A stretch of 51,999 nucleotides of DNA, from NCBI GenBank assembly GCA_001817345.1, contig MHIE01000003.1, positions 29,423 to 81,421 on the forward strand. Reading direction: 5' to 3'. Shown piece by piece: positions 5,822-51,674 of this stretch. This DNA comes from Candidatus Buchananbacteria bacterium RIFCSPHIGHO2_01_FULL_44_11 (lineage in GTDB: Bacteria > Patescibacteriota > Patescibacteriia > Buchananbacterales > UBA6539). Every line of letters starts with the position of its first letter. Positions within the stretch are counted from its first letter, which is position 1. Under the pieces are notes generated by a model. The model worked only from the letters and a program-made list of their open reading frames with translations, ran no database searches and was not told the DNA's origin. Made by a program: the position numbers and the translations under genes.

Positions 5822-6745
5822 ATGATTGCGATTATTAAAATTAGAAAAATCTGGTACACTTTTTCGGCACTGGCGTTTATTGCTGCTATTGTTGCTACTA
5901 TTCTTTGGGGCTTAAATTTCGGCATTGATTTTACCGGCGGCGGGCTGATGGAAGTTTCTTTTACCGAGCAGCGGCCAACTCATCAAGCAGTGACTGATGC
6001 CCTGGTTTCAATCGGCTTGAATAACACGTCAATCCAGCCGGTCGGCGATCAAGGCCTGATTTTAAGGTTTAAAGACGTTGACGAAGAAACCCATCAAAAA
6101 ATTCTCACGACGTTAGAAGAGGCTTTTGATAAAAACACAGACGGCAGTGATCGAGGCACTTTTGAAGAAAAAAAATTCTCCTCCATCGGACCAATCATGG
6201 GTCAGGAGTTAAAAACAAAAACCATCTGGGCTTTAATTCTGGCAAATATTGCCATTATTATTTACGTCGGCCTGGCCTTCAGAAAAGTATCCCGACCAGT
6301 GGCTTCTTGGAAATACGGCGTTATTGCCGTCATCGCTTTAATCCATGACGTTTTCATCACCGTTGGTTTTTTTGCCTTCTTCGGTCATTTTTACGGCATT
6401 GAAATTAATGCCCCATTTATTGCCGCTCTCTTGACGATCTTGGGCTTTTCAGTCCATGACACGATTGTCGTTTTTGACAGAACCAGAGAAAATTTAACCA
6501 AGCAGCACGGAGAAGACTTTGAGGCCATTGTCGAAAAAAGCGTTAATCAGACTATCACCCGGTCAATCAACACTTCCTTGACGGTGTTATTGACTCTTTT
6601 TTCCATTATGATTTTTGGCGGACCAACCATCAGGGATTTTGTTCTGGCCCTAATCATCGGCGTCACTTTCGGCACCTACTCATCCATCTTTGTCGCCAGC
6701 CCGCTTTTGGTTACCTGGGAAAGATTCAGCGCCAAAAAATCATAG
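5822..6745 (+). CDS. secF: Protein translocase subunit SecF
   Basis: GLNFGIDFTGGGLMEV and GFSVHDTIVVFDRTREN motifs; directly after secD. Confidence 0.95.
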   Translation: MIAIIKIRKIWYTFSALAFIAAIVATILWGLNFGIDFTGGGLMEVSFTEQRPTHQAVTDALVSIGLNNTSIQPVGDQGLILRFKDVDEETHQKILTTLEEAFDKNTDGSDRGTFEEKKFSSIGPIMGQELKTKTIWALILANIAIIIYVGLAFRKVSRPVASWKYGVIAVIALIHDVFITVGFFAFFGHFYGIEINAPFIAALLTILGFSVHDTIVVFDRTRENLTKQHGEDFEAIVEKSVNQTITRSINTSLTVLLTLFSIMIFGGPTIRDFVLALIIGVTFGTYSSIFVASPLLVTWERFSAKKS

Positions 6746-6907: not shown

Positions 6908-8071
6908 ATGGCTAACCAAAATTCAATTTTAGACAAAATAATTCAAAGTAAGCAAATGGAAGAAGCGACTCAGTTCAATCCAACCGAGGTAGTTTCTAAT
7001 CTTCTGAGAAACCTCTCAACAAAAGAAAGGGAGATTATCACCAAGCGCTTTGGCCTTTTTGGCAAACCAAAAGAAACTCTGGAACAAATTGGCAAGCAAT
7101 ACCAGATTACCCGGGAAAGAATCAGGCAAATTGAGGTCGGAACAATCAGAAAAATCAAAGAATTTCCGGAATTTTCAATCCAGATTGAGCCAACCGAGCA
7201 CAACGTTATGCATCTACTGGAAAATTACGGCGGGTTTATGGAAGAAAACCACCTGATTGACGAACTTTTGACCTACCCAGATCCTAACCCGATTAACCGT
7301 CAGGCTTCATTGTTTATTCTCGCTAACCTGCTGAATGACAAGTTGGAAAGGATTAAGTCAGACAACGAAGTTTTAATGGGCTGGAAATTGCCGGCCATCT
7401 CTCTTGATACCGTCAGACAAGCAATCAACGAGTTGGTGAGAATAATTGAGGAACAAAATAAATTGCTGCCGACAGAAAAAATAATCAGCGAGTTTAAGCA
7501 AAAAGATTTTTTCCAAAAAAATCAAGAACAAATCGTCAGCGTTAAGCTGGGCACTAGCCAAGGCAACCTAACCGACGAGGAAATTGATAAAATCGTCTTC
7601 TCCTTTTTGAAAATCAGTTACCATATCAATCAAAACATCCTGGGCGAATGGGGTTTGTCTCATTGGCAAACAGTTTCGCCAAAAAGAATGAGCGATAAGG
7701 CCTACTTAGTCTTGCGAAAAACCGGTAAACCGCTGCATTTCACCGAGATTACCGACTTAATCAATCAAACTCAGTTTGACAAAAAAATGGCTTACCCGGC
7801 CACCATCCACAATGAATTAATTTTAGACGATCGCTACGTTTTAGTCGGTCGCGGCATCTATGGCCTGCAAGAGTGGGGTTACAAGACCGGCACGGTCATT
7901 GACGTTATCATTGACATCTTAAAAAGTTCAGATCAACCGCTGAGTAAAGAAGAAATCGTTAAAAAAGTGCTGGAACAAAGAATTGTCAGAAAAAGTACGA
8001 TTTATTTGGCTCTGACCAACAAAGAAAAAATTAAAAAGCTACCGGACGGTAAATATACCCTGAATCAATAA
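6908..8071 (+). CDS. Sigma-70 region 4-like HTH + HARE-HTH domain protein
   Basis: LSTKEREIITKRFGLFGKPKETLEQIGKQYQITRERIRQIEVGTIRKIK is sigma region 4; C-terminal LSDKAYLVLRKTGKPLHFTEIT-like HARE-HTH. No region 2. Confidence 0.75.
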   Translation: MANQNSILDKIIQSKQMEEATQFNPTEVVSNLLRNLSTKEREIITKRFGLFGKPKETLEQIGKQYQITRERIRQIEVGTIRKIKEFPEFSIQIEPTEHNVMHLLENYGGFMEENHLIDELLTYPDPNPINRQASLFILANLLNDKLERIKSDNEVLMGWKLPAISLDTVRQAINELVRIIEEQNKLLPTEKIISEFKQKDFFQKNQEQIVSVKLGTSQGNLTDEEIDKIVFSFLKISYHINQNILGEWGLSHWQTVSPKRMSDKAYLVLRKTGKPLHFTEITDLINQTQFDKKMAYPATIHNELILDDRYVLVGRGIYGLQEWGYKTGTVIDVIIDILKSSDQPLSKEEIVKKVLEQRIVRKSTIYLALTNKEKIKKLPDGKYTLNQ

Positions 8072-41502: not shown

Positions 41503-42922
41503 AACCCGCTTTGCCCCCAGTCCGACCGGCTTTTTGCACGTCGGCGGACTACGCACCGCTTTATATGCCTATTTATTCGCCAAAAAAAATAAAGGCGAAT
41601 TTTTACTGCGGATTGAAGACACTGACCAAGAAAGGCAAGTGACCGGCGCCGTAGAAAATCTGCAAAAGGTCCTGCTTTTGTTTGACCTGAAATGGGACAA
41701 TAAAACCCTGGTCATTCAGTCCGAAAGGCTGGAACACTATCAAAAGGCGGCGCAGCAGCTGATTAGTGCCGGCCAAGCCTATTACTGTTTTTGCTCTAAA
41801 GAAAGACTGGACCAAGTCCGCCAAATTCAGCAGACTAGAGGCGTACCGCCAATGTATGACGGTCACTGCCGACACTTGAACCCGGATGAAATAAAAAATC
41901 AGCTGGCCGAAAAAGAACCTTACGTCATCCGCTTGGCCGTGCCCAAAACCGGCCAGACTAAATTCACCGATTTAATTAGGGGCAAAGTTATTTTTGACAA
42001 CCAATTAATTGACGACCAAGTGATTTTAAAGTCAGACGGCTTTCCGACTTATCACCTGGCGTCAGTGGTTGACGACAACGCCATGGCGATCAGCCACGTC
42101 ATCAGAGGCGAAGAATGGCTACCGTCAACACCCAAACACATTTTGCTTTATCAGGCCCTGGGCTGGACGCCTCCGGAATTTGCCCATCTACCGCTTTTGC
42201 TGAACCCAGACAAATCAAAACTGTCGAAGAGACAGGGTGATGTCGCGGTTGAAGATTACCTGAAAAAAGGTTACCTCAAAGAAGCGTTGCTCAATTTTAT
42301 TTTATTCCTGGGCTGGAATCCAAAAACCGACCAGGAAATTTTCAGCTTTGAAGAGATGGTTAAAGTCTTTGACCTGACTAAAGTTAATAAATCCGGTGCG
42401 GTGTTTGACACCCAAAAATTGGACTGGCTCAACGGCCACTATATCCGTCAAAAACCGTTAGGGGAGTTGACCAAACTCTGTCAAGGGTTTTTTCAACAAG
42501 CGGGTGTGGAAAAGTCTGTGGAAGAATTGGAGCCAATAGTCGCCACCGAGAAAAACCGCATTAAAAAGCTTGAAGATATCGTAGAAGCGACCAAATTCTT
42601 CTTTATCCAGCCCGAATACGAACCCGCGCTTTTACTCTGGAAAGACCTAACCAGCCAGCAAGCGGGTGAAAATTTAAAACTGCTGGGGAAAAAATTAAAC
42701 GAACTGCCGGCCAAAGATTTTGAGCAAAAAATTCTTGAGGATAAAATTATGGCTTTCCTGAAAGAAACCGGGAAAGGGACTGGGGAAATGCTTTGGCCGA
42801 TGCGGGTAGCATTGTCGGGTCAAAAAAATTCGCCCGGGCCGTTTGAAATCGCCAGCGCTTTAGGCAAGGCCGAATCAAATCTAAGAATAAAAAAAGCCAT
42901 TGCTCTCCTTGAAAAAAAGTAA
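41486..42922 (+). CDS. gltX: Glutamyl-tRNA synthetase
   Basis: RFAPSPTGFLHVGGLRTALYAYLFAKK; DKSKLSKRQGDVAV (KLSKR). Confidence 0.96.
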   Translation: MPQKVKTRFAPSPTGFLHVGGLRTALYAYLFAKKNKGEFLLRIEDTDQERQVTGAVENLQKVLLLFDLKWDNKTLVIQSERLEHYQKAAQQLISAGQAYYCFCSKERLDQVRQIQQTRGVPPMYDGHCRHLNPDEIKNQLAEKEPYVIRLAVPKTGQTKFTDLIRGKVIFDNQLIDDQVILKSDGFPTYHLASVVDDNAMAISHVIRGEEWLPSTPKHILLYQALGWTPPEFAHLPLLLNPDKSKLSKRQGDVAVEDYLKKGYLKEALLNFILFLGWNPKTDQEIFSFEEMVKVFDLTKVNKSGAVFDTQKLDWLNGHYIRQKPLGELTKLCQGFFQQAGVEKSVEELEPIVATEKNRIKKLEDIVEATKFFFIQPEYEPALLLWKDLTSQQAGENLKLLGKKLNELPAKDFEQKILEDKIMAFLKETGKGTGEMLWPMRVALSGQKNSPGPFEIASALGKAESNLRIKKAIALLEKK

Positions 42923-42944
42923 AAAAAGTGATATACTGAGAGTA

Positions 42945-44204
42945 ATGTCAAGAATAAACCAAAAACAAAAAACAAAAAAAATTATTCTGCCGGTTTTAAC
43001 CATTGCTGGCCTGATTTTGGCTAGTTTTTTTATTCTAGAATTAAACCCGGTTTCGGCCGAAGACCAAGTCCAGGAGCTTAATTCTGAAATCCAGGATAAG
43101 CAACAAGAGATTGACACCTTGCAAAAAGAAATCGATGCTTACCAAGAGCAGATCCAAATCAAACAAAAAGAATCTAAAAGCTTAAAAAACCAGCTGGCAA
43201 TTTTAGAAAACCAAATTGCTAAAATTGAACTGGATATTGAAGCCACCGGTAAAAAAATTGAACAAGCCAATTTAGAAATTCAAAATCTAAACCTGCAAAT
43301 CCAGGACAAAGAAGCGGAAATCAAAAACCAAAAAACTAAACTGTCAGAGTATATCCGGCTGATTGCCCAAAACGACCAGGTCAGCTACTTAGAGGTAATG
43401 CTTAATAACGATTCTTTTTCTGAATTTTTTGATTACATCAAGTACATTGAAGATATTCACGGAGATCTGAACAAAAACCTCAGCGAATTGAAAACTGCCC
43501 GGCAAGAACTGGAAATTCAAAAATCAAACCTGGAGGACAAGAAAAAACAAGAGGAAACTTTAAAAGACGATTTACTGAAACAAAAAGCAGATTTATCGGA
43601 AAAAACTTCCGCCCAAGGATTGCTGCTGGTCCAAAACCGCCTGACGGAAAGACAATACCAAGGCAATCTCTATCAGCTTCAACTGGAACAACAACAGATC
43701 AATTCCGAAATCGCCACCCTGGAAAAAACCGTTCGGGAAGAACTAGAACAGCGAGAGAAAGCCGAACGCTTCCAAGATTTCGGCCCGGCTCGGCTGAGCT
43801 GGCCGGTCAGTCCCGCTCGTGGCATAAGCGCGCTTTTCCACGATCCGGATTATCCTTTCCGCTACATTTTTGAACATCCGGCCATTGACATCCGGGCCGG
43901 TCAGGGCACGACGATTAAAGCGGCCGAAGGCGGCTACGTCGCTAAGGTTCAGTTCCGCGGCGACAAAAGTTACGCTTACATTATGTTAATTCATAATGAT
44001 GGTCTCTCCACAGTTTACGGCCACGTTTCCGGCGTCAGCGTTAAAACCGACGAATACGTCAGCAAAGGTCAGACGATCGGTAAAAGTGGGGGACTGCCCG
44101 GCAGCATCGGCTCAGGTAATTTGTCCACCGGCCCTCATCTTCACTTTGAAGTCCGGCTCAACGGCATTCCGGTTAATCCGCTGGAATACCTGCCGGCATT
44201 TTAG
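42945..44204 (+). CDS. M23 peptidase with N-terminal coiled coil (EnvC-like)
   Basis: Signal/TM, long coiled coil, EHPAIDIRAGQGTTIKAAEGG...TGPHLHFEVRLNG. Confidence 0.9.
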   Translation: MSRINQKQKTKKIILPVLTIAGLILASFFILELNPVSAEDQVQELNSEIQDKQQEIDTLQKEIDAYQEQIQIKQKESKSLKNQLAILENQIAKIELDIEATGKKIEQANLEIQNLNLQIQDKEAEIKNQKTKLSEYIRLIAQNDQVSYLEVMLNNDSFSEFFDYIKYIEDIHGDLNKNLSELKTARQELEIQKSNLEDKKKQEETLKDDLLKQKADLSEKTSAQGLLLVQNRLTERQYQGNLYQLQLEQQQINSEIATLEKTVREELEQREKAERFQDFGPARLSWPVSPARGISALFHDPDYPFRYIFEHPAIDIRAGQGTTIKAAEGGYVAKVQFRGDKSYAYIMLIHNDGLSTVYGHVSGVSVKTDEYVSKGQTIGKSGGLPGSIGSGNLSTGPHLHFEVRLNGIPVNPLEYLPAF

Positions 44205-45327: not shown

Positions 45328-46026
45328 ATGACCAGCCCAGTCAAACCAACTTTTAAAACCGAGGTTTTACCGCTCAGCCTGATTGCCTTGTCAGTGGTTG
45401 CCAGTTTTTATTTTTATGCCAATTTTCCCGACCAGGTGCCGATTCACTGGAATTACCAGGGAGAAATTGACGACTATGCCAGCAAAGAATTCGGCGCTTT
45501 CTTTTTTCCCGCTTTAATTTTAGGCATTTACCTGATGTTTTTATTCATTCCGTTTCTTGACCCCAAAAAAGAGCGCTATCAGGATTTTCGCAAGGCTTAC
45601 CATGTTTTCAAAGCGGCGATTATTATTTTCATGGTTTTAATTTATGGCTACACCGGCTTAGCCGGTTTGGGTTACGACATTCCGATCGCCACGGTTATCC
45701 CGTCAGCCGTCGGCATTTTATGTATCATCATCGGCAATTACCTGGGCAAAATAAAAACCAACTGGTTTATGGGTATTCGCACGCCCTGGACTTTATCTAA
45801 TGACGAAGTCTGGAATAAAACCAACCGGCTGGGCGGCAAAATGTTTATTGTCATGGGTTTAATCATGGTTTTTGCCCCGCTGCTCCAAATGAATAGCGAG
45901 ATTTTCTGGTGGATTTTTATCGTCAGCATCGCCGTTGTCGCCATTATTCCCATTGTTTATTCCTATATTTTATATCGAAAAATTGAAAAAAATACCTCAA
46001 ATCAGCCAAAAAACGACCAGCCATAG
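45328..46026 (+). CDS. SdpI/YhfL-like (DUF1648) membrane protein
   Basis: FPDQVPIHWNYQGEIDDYASKEFGAFFFPAL; TNWFMGIRTPWTLSNDEVWNKTNRLGGK. Confidence 0.88.
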   Translation: MTSPVKPTFKTEVLPLSLIALSVVASFYFYANFPDQVPIHWNYQGEIDDYASKEFGAFFFPALILGIYLMFLFIPFLDPKKERYQDFRKAYHVFKAAIIIFMVLIYGYTGLAGLGYDIPIATVIPSAVGILCIIIGNYLGKIKTNWFMGIRTPWTLSNDEVWNKTNRLGGKMFIVMGLIMVFAPLLQMNSEIFWWIFIVSIAVVAIIPIVYSYILYRKIEKNTSNQPKNDQP

Positions 46027-46031
46027 GACTA

Positions 46032-46060
46032 TTGACAAAATGAAGATTTTGGTATATACT
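46032..46060 (+). promoter_or_regulatory. Promoter of secreted orphan
   Basis: TTGACA - 17 nt - TATACT. Confidence 0.7.
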
Positions 46061-46238
46061 ACCATAATATTCAGCTAAAATACGCTAGAATACAAAAATT
46101 ACCGAGCTGGATAGAAAGGAGGAAAGCCAGCTCTTTTCACAAGACGCTACTGCGAAGTAGCAAGGGGAATACTTTTTTAGGAGTTAATTTAACTTCTAAA
46201 CAAAGGCAGTAATCCTTTGAGCCAAGAGGAGAGTCATC

Positions 46239-46778
46239 ATGCATCGAACCCGACTGTGTACCTTGGCCATTATGGCCCTTATTGCATTCACGACGAATTC
46301 CGCAACGACCACGGCGCGCGGCGCGACGACCGACGTCGGCATGACGACCCAACATTTGATCATCGGGTCCACCGACTCCGCCCGGCCCGGCACCGCTTCG
46401 ACTCACATGACCGCCTACGACGGCCTGACCCTGGCGTTCGGCACCGATGCCGAGAAGACGTATACCCACGTCAACAATTATGCCACGGCCGGCCAGACCA
46501 AGATCGACGATTACTTCATGTTCTCGACCGCGCCCGACTCCGGGCGAACCTACCAGATGACCGGCGCCATTATGACACCAACCGCGCTGGCCGTCGTTAC
46601 CGACAACCAGAACCTCTACCAATGGACCGGCGGTGACCGCGCCTGGGTGATCGCAACGGCCCGCATGACCGAATTGATCGCTCAACAGGAGCATTTTTCC
46701 GCCTTGGCCACGAGCCAATACGCCGTGTCCACCGGCACCTGCGTCGCCACCCCGACGCGACTCCCGCTCCGATGCTGA
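46239..46778 (+). CDS. Secreted Thr-rich orphan protein
   Basis: SD AAGAGGAGAG before ATG; signal-peptide-like MHRTRLCTLAIMALIAFTTNSATTTARG; GC-rich. Confidence 0.6.
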   Translation: MHRTRLCTLAIMALIAFTTNSATTTARGATTDVGMTTQHLIIGSTDSARPGTASTHMTAYDGLTLAFGTDAEKTYTHVNNYATAGQTKIDDYFMFSTAPDSGRTYQMTGAIMTPTALAVVTDNQNLYQWTGGDRAWVIATARMTELIAQQEHFSALATSQYAVSTGTCVATPTRLPLRC

Positions 46779-46853
46779 CTGAATGAAGCATTATCCTCTC
46801 CGTCCCCGCTCACGCCATTAGTTAACGCCAAAGCGTTAACCTGACCTTAATCC

Positions 46854-46893
46854 GAGACGGACCTTACCCCCAAAGGCCCGTCTCTTTCTTTTT
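46854..46893 (+). terminator. Intrinsic terminator
   Basis: GAGACGG-loop-CCGTCTC + CTTT-rich tail. Confidence 0.8.
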
Positions 46894-47044
46894 ATTATTT
46901 TTCCCCTCCTTTTTAAGGAGGGGCTAGGCCTGCTTGCCGAAGCCAACGATTTTAGTGAGTTCGGCGCAGGCAAGGGTGGTTTATTAACCCCTCCTAACCT
47001 CCCCTTGAAAAGGGGAGGAATTTTAACTTAATATTTTAACACCA

Positions 47045-47632
47045 AAAAAGAAAAGACTCGGGATTCGAGTCTTTTGCAAGGTGCGAAGAAGATGGCCGCC
47101 GATGACTTAATTTCTGCTTTAGAGCAGGAAATTAAGTAATTCGGAAGTCAGCCGGATGACGGCGGCGGCAATCTCCAAGGTGAGCAAGTTCGCTACCAAT
47201 TCCTTATGATGTCTTAAGCTCCGCGGTTTGCTGATAAAGTCCATATGGTTTTGACTTAATAATAGCGGAGGGTAAGACCGCCAGGGGACTAGCCTGGGGG
47301 TAGCGAGTTAACTCGCCTGTTGTCCTCCTTTAACTACCGACTGGAATCGGCAGCTAGAGAAGGGCAACATTTTAGTTTTCAATGACCAAGCGGTAATCTT
47401 TGTCTCGGCCTAAAGAAGACGGCCGGCCGGTCAGGATATTACAATTTTTAGAAAGGCTGGGGAAAGCGCAGATACGCTTCCCCTAAGTGCAACGGCAGAA
47501 GAGAGCTCAATTGACCGTGGCTGGCCAGTTAGACGAACGGTGACCATTTTTCTTTCTAGCCACAAAACGACCGCGGTCGTAACCGCGGTTGATGGCTCAA
47601 TTGAATTGTCTGGTTTTAGTATAACACAACCC
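47045..47632 (-). ncRNA. Candidate large structured non-coding RNA (orientation from terminator)
   Basis: No credible ORF; many hairpins (GGGGAAGCG/CGCTTTCCCC; ACTTAATTTC-CTGCT/AGCAG-AAATTAAGT; GCCGCCG/CGGCGGC; GCGAGTTAACTCGC); terminator-like AAAAGACTCG-AATCC-CGAGTCTTTTCTTTTTT on minus strand; TATACT at 47618-47623. Confidence 0.4.
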
Positions 47633-47806
47633 CGGTTACATCTTCTGCCTGTTGTCAAACAGCATAGACGTGCCAGTTTGTGTTTATATTGTTTTGTTTT
47701 AGCGAATATTTTTAAATTTAGCTTATCTAACCTGCCTACCGATGAAGACGAAGAATCGCTGGAAAAGTTACAGCCCCAAAAACGGCTAATTGATAACAGT
47801 TAAATT

Positions 47807-48757
47807 TCAGTCTTTTTTTAAGGGATGAAATTTACCATGGGTTTCTTCGGCGTATCTGTCCGAAGCGTGGACATAACGGGTGGTGGTGTCCAGTGACTCG
47901 TGGCCCAATAAAATTTGGATCGCCGCCGGATTGGCGCCGTTTTCGGCTAAATAAGTCGCAAAACCGTGGCGCAGGCCGTGAGCCGAAATCGGAATGTTGA
48001 TTTTTAGTTTCTCCCGGTAAAACTTAATTCGTTCTTGCAAATAATTAGTCGAAATCCGTCGTTTATATGCGGCTTTATCATTAGCGTTACTACCGCGATA
48101 GGGAATAAACAGCGCCTGCAAATTATCAGTCCGGTGTTTCAGGTAACTATTGAGATGATTGAACGCCCGGGGTGTCATATAGACAAAACGCTGCTTTTTG
48201 CCTTTACCTTGGATAAAAATCCGACCGGTATGATCAATGTGGGCCCGATTCAGACTTAGCAACTCGGAAATACGCATGCCAGTTGAGAAAAGCATTTCCA
48301 GCATCGCTCGGTTTCGATCGGCCACCGCTTTATTATTTTCCAGAACGCTGGGTGATTCGATCAGTTTCACCAGTTCATCCATTTCAGCGACGTGAGCGTG
48401 CTTGCGTTCGGTTTTGACCAATTTAACTGCTTCGGGCGGAATTGGTGTTTTAATATCCATTTCAATCAAATACTTTAAATACGAACGTAAACTGGATAAA
48501 AAACGGTTTAAGGAATAGCTTTGCAGTTTTTTATGAGTCACTTGATCTTCGGCGGTTTTCCGGTCAATGGAATTTAAATAAGCTTTGTAGCGGTTAATCG
48601 CCTGCTTATCAACCTTAGAAAAGGGGATAGCCGTCTCTGTAAGGAAATTTTCAAAAACTTTCAAATCCCGTTCATAATTATAAACAGTTTCATCGGAATA
48701 ATGTTTATCCAAAAGATGCTGATGAAAACTGGCAAGGTAAGGTAAATTCATACTCAA
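47807..48757 (-). CDS. Tyrosine recombinase/integrase (XerC/D-like) 1
   Basis: STGMRISELLSL, HGLRHGFATYLAENG, LLGHESLDTTTRYVH catalytic R-HxxR-H-Y. ATG start probably 48751. Confidence 0.93.
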   Translation of the reverse strand: MSMNLPYLASFHQHLLDKHYSDETVYNYERDLKVFENFLTETAIPFSKVDKQAINRYKAYLNSIDRKTAEDQVTHKKLQSYSLNRFLSSLRSYLKYLIEMDIKTPIPPEAVKLVKTERKHAHVAEMDELVKLIESPSVLENNKAVADRNRAMLEMLFSTGMRISELLSLNRAHIDHTGRIFIQGKGKKQRFVYMTPRAFNHLNSYLKHRTDNLQALFIPYRGSNANDKAAYKRRISTNYLQERIKFYREKLKINIPISAHGLRHGFATYLAENGANPAAIQILLGHESLDTTTRYVHASDRYAEETHGKFHPLKKD

Positions 48758-49263
48758 AATGTTTCAAATTCAAGTAAAGTGCGCTCAGCCGGAATGCATA
48801 GAAAAATACAGTTCTTCATTGTCGAAAGATTAATCCACATCTTATAGATTGATACCGTCCCAACTTCGACATACAAGTCTTTTTTACCGTCATAAAATAC
48901 CCCCAAGTCGGCACGACCGTTATTTAAAATTGGTTCAGTTGTTACATCAAAACCCTGTGTCGTAAAATATGTATCAATCATATTCATCATACCCTGATGC
49001 CATTCTTTACCATGCTTATGCTTGGTATCACCCAATTTCGAAGATTCTCCCCAGAAATTAGCTTTGTAATTATCCAATTTACGTGCTTTAATTTTTCCAC
49101 TAACAATCATTAAAGCAATCTGTCGATAAGCAAATTCATCACAATGCTGACAACTATCACGACTACCCCACGAAGCAATAAGTTTTTTTAACCAGCTAAT
49201 TTCATCCGAAATCTTTTTTTCGACAATATGCCAAGGTAAATCTGTTCGTCTAACTTGATTCAT
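48754..49263 (-). CDS. Putative PD-(D/E)XK-like protein of unknown function
   Basis: GRADLGVFYDGKKDLYVEVGTVS resembles the D...ExG core of nuclease-fold proteins; CxxC in SCQHCDEF. Assignment by eye only. Confidence 0.45.
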   Translation of the reverse strand: MNQVRRTDLPWHIVEKKISDEISWLKKLIASWGSRDSCQHCDEFAYRQIALMIVSGKIKARKLDNYKANFWGESSKLGDTKHKHGKEWHQGMMNMIDTYFTTQGFDVTTEPILNNGRADLGVFYDGKKDLYVEVGTVSIYKMWINLSTMKNCIFLCIPAERTLLEFETF

Positions 49264-49275
49264 TTCAATAGCTAA

Positions 49276-49764
49276 TTAAATTAATCTAAATAAAAAAAAT
49301 AAAACTAGGATAGAGCCAGAAACATACAAAAAGTTAATGAGATGAAAAATTGGATCACTAGCTTTGGGTTCTTTTTTGGTAATCTTTTTGTAGTCATTTG
49401 CCTCTGTTCCATCCAATTGTTCCCCTTGCTGAACTTTATAAAAAAAATAATATTTTCGTTTTAATTGAGACAATTCAAGAGATGAAATATACCAAAAATA
49501 TAATGGTATCGCAACAAAATTAATTGAAATCATTGCAAGTCCAACCAAAGCGAAATTTGAGACAGTGGTTATAAATTTTTGAACAACTAAAGTTATGATG
49601 CCCACCGCCTGAACTGTGCTAGTTGTATAAACTGAAATTAGAAACTTACGCCGCATATTGAGAGATTTCAAACCTATGTCGGCAATATCAGCAATATTTT
49701 TTTCAAGATTCTCATGATTAAAAGTATATAATTTATTGTTCATATAGTTTAGTACTTCTTTCAA
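49276..49764 (-). CDS. Small membrane protein with paired TM segments (SLATT-like topology?)
   Basis: Two hydrophobic pairs flanking a charged linker (LSQLKRKYYFFYKVQQGEQLDG), third TM at C-term. Confidence 0.5.
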   Translation of the reverse strand: MKEVLNYMNNKLYTFNHENLEKNIADIADIGLKSLNMRRKFLISVYTTSTVQAVGIITLVVQKFITTVSNFALVGLAMISINFVAIPLYFWYISSLELSQLKRKYYFFYKVQQGEQLDGTEANDYKKITKKEPKASDPIFHLINFLYVSGSILVLFFLFRLI

Positions 49765-49778
49765 CCAATTACAAAAAA

Positions 49779-50750
49779 TTATTTTTTTAATTTCCTGCCA
49801 CTGTGAAAAGCCCGATGGACATCCCGCAAATGCTGGCTGGTGACATGCGTATAAATCTGTGTTGTCACAATATTGCGATGACCCAAAAATTCCTGAATGG
49901 TGCGCAAATCAACACCCTGCTCAAGCAGATCGGTGGCATAAGAATGTCGCAGCGTGTGCGGCGTTGTACTGATAGGTAAACCAGCAATTTTAACGTAGTC
50001 TTTGATTAAACGCTCCACCGAGCGTGTTGTCAACCGTTTCGTCTCGGCCTTTTTATCTTTGCGAAAATTTACAAACAATGCTGGATCAAAGTCTTTTCTA
50101 AGACTCAAATAGCGGTCAAGCGCCTCAAGTGCCCGTGGGGAGAAGTAAACGGTCCGGGTGTAGCCTCCTTTACCGGTAATGGGTAATTCTAAATCAGTGA
50201 CACCTCTTTTTTTGATATATTCAATATTAATTTGGTCTCGATTTAAAGCCACCAATTCACCAACACGCATTCCGGTACTAAATAATACTTCCAAAATTGC
50301 TCCGTCACGTAGATCAATAATTGTTTTTCCGGCAGGGGATAGGAGTAGGCGCTCGACCTGATCAATACTTAAAAAAGAGACTTTTTTGACACTTTTTTCA
50401 CGAACCAAAATTATTTTATCTGCCGGCAAAGCGACGATGTCCTTTGCGGCAAAGTATGTTAAAAGTGCTCGCAAAGCAATTAAATAATAATTTTGAGTCG
50501 TTTTTTTTAAATATCGTCCGTCCTTAGGGCTTTTGCTACGGGATAGAAAGAGGCGATAGCGATAAATGTGCTCACTAGTTAACTCGTGAGGTTTAAGGTT
50601 ATCCAAGCCTTCTTTAATTAGCCAATCGGTAAAACGTTTTAAAAATCGCCCATAATTCTCAACGCTGTTCGAAGACAACCCTTTAACAACATCACTATAA
50701 TCCAAAAAGTCCGTAATATGCTTTACTAGAGGAGTAGCAGATTTATTCAT
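49779..50750 (-). CDS. Tyrosine recombinase/integrase (XerC/D-like) 2
   Basis: STGMRVGELVALN, TPHTLRHSYATDLLEQG, FLGHRNIVTTQIYTHV. Confidence 0.93.
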   Translation of the reverse strand: MNKSATPLVKHITDFLDYSDVVKGLSSNSVENYGRFLKRFTDWLIKEGLDNLKPHELTSEHIYRYRLFLSRSKSPKDGRYLKKTTQNYYLIALRALLTYFAAKDIVALPADKIILVREKSVKKVSFLSIDQVERLLLSPAGKTIIDLRDGAILEVLFSTGMRVGELVALNRDQINIEYIKKRGVTDLELPITGKGGYTRTVYFSPRALEALDRYLSLRKDFDPALFVNFRKDKKAETKRLTTRSVERLIKDYVKIAGLPISTTPHTLRHSYATDLLEQGVDLRTIQEFLGHRNIVTTQIYTHVTSQHLRDVHRAFHSGRKLKK

Positions 50751-50787
50751 ATACGTCTATTAACCTATATTATGCGACATTACTATT

Positions 50788-50816
50788 ATTTTATAAAACA
50801 GCCCAAAATCAGTCAA
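50788..50816 (-). promoter_or_regulatory. Promoter of the recombinase operon
   Basis: Reverse strand TTGACT - 17 nt - TAAAAT. Confidence 0.6.
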
Positions 50817-50822
50817 CTGGAC

Positions 50823-51674
50823 TTATCCACATAAAGCCTGAATTTCTGATTCCAGACGAATTAATTTATTGCCCTCTAGACCCAAGCGCTTGAATTGATT
50901 CTGATAATTAAGCAGGTCTTTGCATAAAACCACACCTTGGCTTAAAAAATAGCGTTTCTGATCGTTATTTAAGGTCACTAGACTAGTCAACGGGTATAAA
51001 CCTTCAGCTTCGACAAAATTCTGCAAACTTGAGCCGGCCGGATAATCCCAGCTGGTAACTTTAACCCCGGCGCAAAGACCGTATTTTCTGACTTCACTGG
51101 TGACTTTGGTGTTAGTGACAAGCCAGCTTTGCAATTCCCCGCTTTGGGGCTTAGCCCCGATTTTACGTTTTGCGACCCATGCGTTATTAATATCCATGAA
51201 CCGAGCATGGGTGTATAAAATGTCTTTACTGCCGGTTTTAGCACCCGGTCTGACATGGAATTTACATTCAACGATGGCGTGGATGTTTTCTGCCGGAATT
51301 TCCGCGACGACGTCAATTTCATGGCTTAAACAGCGGCCCTGGAAAATCTGATTAATCTGAACCTGGTAACCTTGTTTTTCCAATAAAGCGGCAAAATATT
51401 TCTCAAACGGAAAGCCGCTTGGCCCCAAAGCCATAATCGCCCGCTTCAAATTATACCGAGCGGCATAATGAGCGCCGCTGGCTTTCAGCAAACTAAAAGC
51501 CAGCCGATAAATAGTAGATGTACTCATACCCGGCCGGACCTCTTTTTTGATTTGGTTTAGAATTCCTTCAATCGCTTGAGCCTTGGCCCCGGATTTTTTC
51601 AAAGAATGCCTTAATTTATCCAAAGAAAAAAGTTCCCGTTCCCCCGCTGCCTTGGTAATATAAATATTTTTCAT
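50823..51674 (-). CDS. ATP-cone domain fused to restriction-endonuclease-like (PD-(D/E)XK) domain
   Basis: N-term KAAGERELFSLDKLRHSLKKSGAKAQAIEGILNQIKKEVRPGMSTSTIYRLAFSLL (ATP-cone); HEIDVVAEIPAENIHAIVECKFH = D...ExK. Confidence 0.8.
   Translation of the reverse strand: MKNIYITKAAGERELFSLDKLRHSLKKSGAKAQAIEGILNQIKKEVRPGMSTSTIYRLAFSLLKASGAHYAARYNLKRAIMALGPSGFPFEKYFAALLEKQGYQVQINQIFQGRCLSHEIDVVAEIPAENIHAIVECKFHVRPGAKTGSKDILYTHARFMDINNAWVAKRKIGAKPQSGELQSWLVTNTKVTSEVRKYGLCAGVKVTSWDYPAGSSLQNFVEAEGLYPLTSLVTLNNDQKRYFLSQGVVLCKDLLNYQNQFKRLGLEGNKLIRLESEIQALCG

Follow-up and report, generated by a model that had tools for sequence, protein, structure and literature searches.

The Xer/dif system, by which chromosome dimers are resolved, is considered to be stable housekeeping machinery in which recombinase and site co-evolve. 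The other class of genes relevant here, free-standing homing endonucleases, converts neighbouring alleles. Xer systems with a single recombinase are known as XerS/difSL in streptococci, XerH/difH in epsilon-proteobacteria and XerL/dif in Legionellales (PMC5357621; PMC9765430), and XerL shows that divergent Xer systems had been overlooked (PMC9765430). A possible co-existence of XerCD and XerS in one genome has been proposed as an evolutionary intermediate (PMC3025954), and mobile elements that exploit Xer have been described as IMEX (PMC5357621). For homing, one account includes free-standing endonucleases and intronless homing in T4-like phages (PMC2988022), and another names PD-(D/E)XK among the recognised homing families (PMC6083498).

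The patescibacterial loci described here resemble those of XerS, XerH and XerL in that one Xer recombinase is accompanied by its own dif site, there near the terminus and here at a terminus-like position, and XerS/difSL also in that the site is immediately beside the gene (PMC5357621). Unlike in these systems, the locus switches between two specificities, each of a gene plus its site, within genera; at least 14 changes were counted, and genes for endonucleases have repeatedly lodged beside xer, either just behind the gene or, in several cases, between the site and the coding sequence. The sites also differ from difSL in having a 6-bp centre and 11-bp arms, as classical dif has. As in the proposed XerCD/XerS co-existence (PMC3025954), two resolution systems can occur in one genome, but in that case each recombinase gene has a locus of its own, whereas here both lie in one operon with a nuclease gene between them. 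A small nuclease gene by a conserved gene, its sporadic occurrence, its decaying copies and a proposed conversion of the flanks recall the free-standing homing endonucleases of T4-like phages; unlike in the phages, the setting is a cellular chromosome, the neighbour is a resolution recombinase and cleavage is a prediction. dif sites and Xer are involved as in IMEX, but neither a second dif site nor an excisable site-bounded unit was found. If the homing reading is true, the joint replacement of a recombinase and an essential chromosomal site becomes testable. In addition, predicted resolution sites are supplied for Patescibacteria, for which no report of dif sites, nor of xer-linked endonucleases, was found in the open-access literature.

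The operon and its dif-like site

The window, i.e., the whole stretch of 51,999 nucleotides that was analysed, comes from “Candidatus Buchananbacteria bacterium RIFCSPHIGHO2_01_FULL_44_11” and contains the four minus-strand genes that an initial annotation had listed as a compact operon (Table 1). Their coordinates were confirmed, with gaps of 14 and 12 bp followed by a 4-bp overlap. Both outer genes match Phage_integrase (E 1e-36 and 1e-31) as well as the XerC and XerD models, the latter with scores below the equivalog cut-offs; the catalytic residues R, K, HxxRH, H and Y are intact in both, and, as annotated, the two clearly differ from each other (~32% identity). The promoter assigned to the head of the operon is present as a consensus match, and between it and the start of rec2 lies a 28-bp dif-like site which had previously escaped notice. 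Scored with a PWM built from other rec2-type genomes, this site reaches 37.1 bits, compared to 4.3 for the next independent site in the window; it has 17 of 22 arm matches and ends 2 bp before the rec2 start codon.

Searches of Pfam, NCBIfam, PHROGs and PADLOC gave no significant family for the two inner genes, mem and nuc. For mem the open reading frame holds, but the ATG at 49743 is a more likely start than the TTG at 49764. The AT-richness ascribed to both genes is real in the window (GC 0.406 for rec2, 0.290 for mem, 0.355 for nuc and 0.424 for rec1), but a higher AT content of nuc than of its xer gene is not consistent across five related loci. mem was found only in the window genome: viral contigs, phages and plasmids contain no relatives, there is no fold match, and among 55 genomes only two marginal matches were obtained (E 0.003), with stop codons inside. 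It is not a conserved part of the locus and would represent a private addition to the operon. The ATP-cone/Mrr-like gene upstream is absent from all other xer loci fetched and is, therefore, probably not part of the module.

On the other side, ArsR and SdpI-like genes separate the M23-type peptidase from the xer genes. The 1.8 kb that separate rec1 from the SdpI-like gene (46026-47806) contain no convincing gene; they include a stretch that exceeds 60% GC against a background of 43%, as well as sequence that looks structured near 47100-47450, with no match in Rfam or in the loci of the other genomes. The Rfam scan of the window gave three tRNAs and nothing else.

Table 1. Features of the operon and its surroundings (positions in the window).
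Feature	Position	Strand	Basis or remark
Sigma-70-like promoter TTGACT-17-TAAAAT	50788..50816	(-)	Operon head; consensus match only
dif2-like Xer site ATGTCGCATAA-TATAGG-TTAATAGACGT	50753..50780	(-)	PWM and arm matches
rec2, Xer-type tyrosine recombinase, 323 aa	49779..50750	(-)	ORF, profile matches; same locus in most close relatives
mem, small helical membrane protein, 155 aa from ATG	49276..49743	(-)	162 aa if TTG 49764
nuc, predicted PD-(D/E)XK endonuclease, 169 aa (GRADLG...YVEVGTVSIYK)	48754..49263	(-)	Model, fold and motif
rec1, second Xer-type tyrosine recombinase, 316 aa	47807..48757	(-)	Alternative ATG start 48751
ATP-cone and Mrr-like nuclease-domain protein, upstream neighbour	50823..51674	(-)	Domain matches
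M23-type peptidase, convergent	42900..44204	(+)	Conserved xer neighbour in many relatives

Alternative recombinase types at one position

The distribution of the recombinases was determined in 381 genomes of one Patescibacteria class, including the window genome (G000, an assembly of 30 contigs that is 78% complete). Close relatives of rec1 (57-75% identity) occur in 55 of these genomes, G000 counted, and close relatives of rec2 (mostly 47-64% identity) in 71. Nearly every genome of the class carries just one type; both types together would be expected in ~10 genomes and were found in two (Fisher p 0.0011), i.e., G000 and a member of the Komeilibacteria (G341). In the latter nuc also lies between the two recombinases, so that the gene order of the window recurs there as rec2-nuc-rec1, without mem.

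Both types share one position in most loci with enough context (ftsQ-xer-M23): upstream of xer are genes which we take, from our own reading of the sequences, to be ftsQ with ddl, serS and lysS, and downstream a presumed convergent M23 peptidase and gltX. The types are mixed within single genera (g69, g86, g92 and g176), and a tree of the four flanking genes from 74 loci contains at least 14 type changes. In one same-genus pair, with rec2 in G203 and rec1 in G216, the DNA is ~86-92% identical over 9 kb and differs solely in xer and the dif region upstream of it; homology ends ~150-210 bp before the xer start and is back 10 to 24 bp after the stop. In the tree of the recombinases, rec1 of G000 clusters with its family (G005), as rec1 of G341 does with its genus. 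The rec2 of G000 clusters with that of G009, a genome of the same order in which rec2 occupies this position as the sole recombinase, next to SdpI and ArsR genes.

Each type is directly preceded by a 28-bp site of its own, laid out as dif with two 11-bp arms around a 6-bp centre. That of rec1-type genes, dif1, reads ACTGAGTATAA-N6-TTACACTCAGT (in full form ACTGAGTATAA-TAtCtC-TTACACTCAgT), and that of rec2-type genes, dif2, reads ACTTCGCATAA-N6-TTAAGCGAAGT (in full form ACTTCGCATAA-TgTAGA-TTAAtcGAcgT). At a threshold of at least 16 of the 22 arm positions (the 99th percentile of shuffled sequence being ~15), all 50 of the rec1-only loci that were scored have dif1; of 44 rec2-only loci, 31 have dif2 and 13 have no site above the threshold with this consensus. 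In a genome-wide scan allowing one mismatch, nearly all rec1-only genomes with a match have a single dif1, located next to xer, and none of 23 rec2-only genomes has one; the same scan did not find it in G341 or in the 78% complete assembly of G000. Within the window there is a single strong dif2, and looser look-alikes lie on contigs C15 and C19 of that assembly.

Over 97 loci, the mean GC skew changes from ~+0.1 to ~-0.05 at xer, to which gene strand bias contributes, and genes run towards xer from both sides (419:36 and 77:364). By its skew and the flip in gene direction at the level of the locus, which are partly confounded by gene strand, the position is terminus-like.

Judged from these sequence comparisons, xer alleles together with their dif sites replace each other at one terminus-like position, and the four-gene block is a Xer/dif-type locus, with chromosome-dimer resolution as its predicted role, rather than an ordinary cargo-carrying element. 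The recombinases had initially been described as a bracket around cargo; they are, instead, two alternative Xer/dif-type recombinases of a conserved locus.

Separately, a 20-bp identical sequence (about GTATTAATGTATTAACACA) was noticed downstream of both xer types in one genus, twice in one locus; its copies lie at positions 2540-2559 and 5976-5995 of locus L189 and 7009-7028 of locus L163.

Nuclease genes beside xer

The initial description of the 169-aa protein as nuclease-like is supported by its AlphaFold2 model (pLDDT 82, pTM 0.76), in which helices and strands follow the PD-(D/E)XK order, and by its fold matches, mostly weak. The top Foldseek matches are mainly of the PD-(D/E)XK type (Bax1, EcoRV and R2 endonuclease), with the homing enzyme I-Ssp6803I lower; the best match to a solved structure is weak (E 0.008), and a viral PD-(D/E)XK nuclease matches with E 5e-4. 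A comparison with PDB sequences gave nothing meaningful. D119, E133 and K141 are invariant in the nuc family, and the canonical catalytic K after E133 is replaced by G (EVG); K141 may stand in for it. nuc is predicted to encode a PD-(D/E)XK nuclease, its activity being a prediction because of this replacement.

The gene is present in 3 of the 381 class genomes, a fourth match being marginal (E 0.005), and in 1 of 380 genomes of the phylum. It was not found in plasmid, phage and viral-contig collections. A profile scan of 84,980 species genomes yielded six loci, in all of which nuc lies directly 3' of a xer gene: five behind rec2-type genes (in Komeilibacteria, i.e., G341, Gribaldobacteria, Staskawiczbacteria, one further bacterium and the patescibacterium G278, where a fragment of a decayed nuc remains) and one, in Nealsonbacteria, behind a rec1-type gene that has dif1. 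In the window it is one gene away from its upstream xer gene, with mem between. The nuc-linked rec2 genes are not a single clade in the tree. The initial annotation had reasoned that the two recombinases occurring in relatives with no link to the inner genes would speak against its reading; relatives do carry one or the other recombinase without the inner genes, but nuc always occurs with a xer gene. The block was rightly seen as a genuine, unusual composite, and, because the nuc family was found only beside xer genes, it is more than chance. nuc is a sporadic gene lodged at a conserved position, for which alleles without it and alleles with a decayed copy also occur, as is the case for free-standing homing endonucleases.

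Other endonuclease genes occur in the same neighbourhood. The interval from dif1 to rec1 contains an HNH gene in four genomes (G005, G232, G326 and G367), with Pfam E-values of 1e-10 to 1e-14, the decayed remains of one in G323 and, in G125, a gene of the LAGLIDADG type. A further LAGLIDADG gene, with E 5.5e-14, comes after nuc in the locus of Staskawiczbacteria. Pfam matches to HNH or LAGLIDADG were obtained for 5 of 53 unlabelled ORFs next to xer, and neither is among the families listed for 89 non-adjacent control ORFs of the same loci. Since a motif scan for endonucleases was devised after these matches had been seen, this Pfam control alone is taken as evidence; its list ends at 25 families, so that single matches among the control ORFs could be hidden. 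In G007 and G339, a PD-(D/E)XK-like protein is encoded directly behind xer. These related proteins (L069 8739-9365 and L221 5788-6369), behind xer genes of different types, have the motif PD...ECG(N/D)T...DK and probably form another xer-linked nuclease family. Their motif aligns with that of nuc, but the profile comparison was not significant (probability 4%) and they are, therefore, kept as separate PD-(D/E)XK-like candidates.

It seems to us reasonably likely that the xer-dif cassettes are alternative alleles, on which homing-type endonucleases ride and whose replacement these may drive. nuc would be a free-standing homing-type endonuclease living beside xer genes and cutting those xer alleles that lack it; repair from the donor copy would then copy in nuc, the linked recombinase and its site together. 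The HNH and LAGLIDADG genes between dif1 and rec1 would have invaded this spot independently. Most swapped xer loci have no endonuclease gene today, and ordinary homologous recombination, not a nuclease, may move the cassettes. A bolder version, which we put forward tentatively, is that the xer/dif region is a gene-drive-like target: at least three unrelated endonuclease classes (PD-(D/E)XK, HNH and LAGLIDADG) would recognise it and drive repeated replacement of recombinase plus site, with the window as a double-allele intermediate. The side-by-side recombinase versions and the selfish-looking nuclease suggest that a core cell-division gene has repeatedly been swapped out.

It is rather unlikely that, with the xer alleles alternating as above, nuc has an accessory function in Xer recombination, e.g., the cutting of stalled junctions or the regulation of xer, and is not a selfish gene. 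Its place directly behind xer genes of both recombinase types, often with a gap of a few bases or an overlap, would suit such a role, and Holliday-junction resolvases are among its viral fold matches. However, an accessory would hardly be so rare, decayed in G278, linked to rec2 genes from more than one clade and matched by unrelated endonuclease families in the same neighbourhood of other genomes.

The two double loci

An empty site in a close relative, for which the initial annotation had advised a search, was found for G341. G302, of the same genus as G341, has dif1-rec1 and no nuc, and the identity of 82-87% between the two is lost just after ftsQ and regained ~31 codons into rec1. The non-homologous segment of G341 consists of dif2-rec2-nuc and a divergent 5' end of rec1, that of G302 of dif1, the promoter and its own 5' end of rec1. 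By this comparison, G341 gained dif2-rec2-nuc, lost dif1 and kept rec1; the donor probably already had the rec2-nuc-rec1 trio, because the junction is inside rec1, the 5' end of which came along. A decay of rec1 in the double genomes was considered and is not supported: in G341, the dN/dS relative to G302 is 0.05 (0.048 beyond the first ~31 codons), i.e., the gene is under purifying selection, with the insertion undated. Its longer branch in the tree is partly due to the first ~31 codons. Since it is under purifying selection in G341, rec1 may still have a job.

For the window, we infer a Xer/dif locus caught with two normally alternative xer alleles. rec2 and its site would be the working resolvase and rec1 the older, displaced resident, as the closest sampled relative of rec1, from the same family, has dif1-HNH-rec1. 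We regard it as improbable that rec2 and rec1 instead work jointly, in the manner of XerC and XerD, on the one asymmetric site, nuc and mem being passengers. Such a pair would agree with two intact genes that share an operon and keep their order in two distantly related genomes, and with the asymmetry of the site and the selection on rec1 in G341, but almost all relatives keep one recombinase with its own, often palindromic site, and the right arm of the window site is, by inspection, nearer to dif2 (8/11) than to dif1 (5/11).

The proposal that had been made initially, i.e., a mobile element, integrative or a tyrosine-recombinase transposon, with membrane and nuclease cargo of a possible defence or toxin type, is very unlikely. 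The distribution is patchy, the inner genes are AT-rich in the window and there are two recombinases; however, no flanking repeats and no second core or dif site bound an element, the block is not in the phage, plasmid or viral collections, and orthologues of each recombinase occupy the corresponding chromosomal position in many genomes. The idea of a new mobile-element chassis can, therefore, largely be set aside, as can that of a defence or toxin cargo, no gene having a PADLOC match and mem not being conserved. That two alleles from a mixed population were wrongly fused during assembly is barely credible even with 30 contigs and 78% completeness, as an independent Komeilibacteria assembly has the same rec2-nuc-rec1 order, rec1 groups with its own family and the junctions of 14, 12 and -4 bp look like those of a normal operon.

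Further xer-like sequences lie elsewhere in these genomes. A more distant xer type occurs in other relatives at a separate rpsO-pnp position. G000 has a third xer-like gene (L092, C6:39205-40047) in the context rpsO-NYN-pnp, with an in-frame TAA; the same rpsO-NYN-pnp position is the site of a xer gene in several other relatives. The dif2-like sequences at C15:4958-4981 (L090) and C19:37400-37423 of G000 have 19 identical bases in common (TTCGCATAATACTAGTTAG), and one of them adjoins another tyrosine recombinase gene; the pair could possibly represent the attachment sites of a separate Xer-like element.
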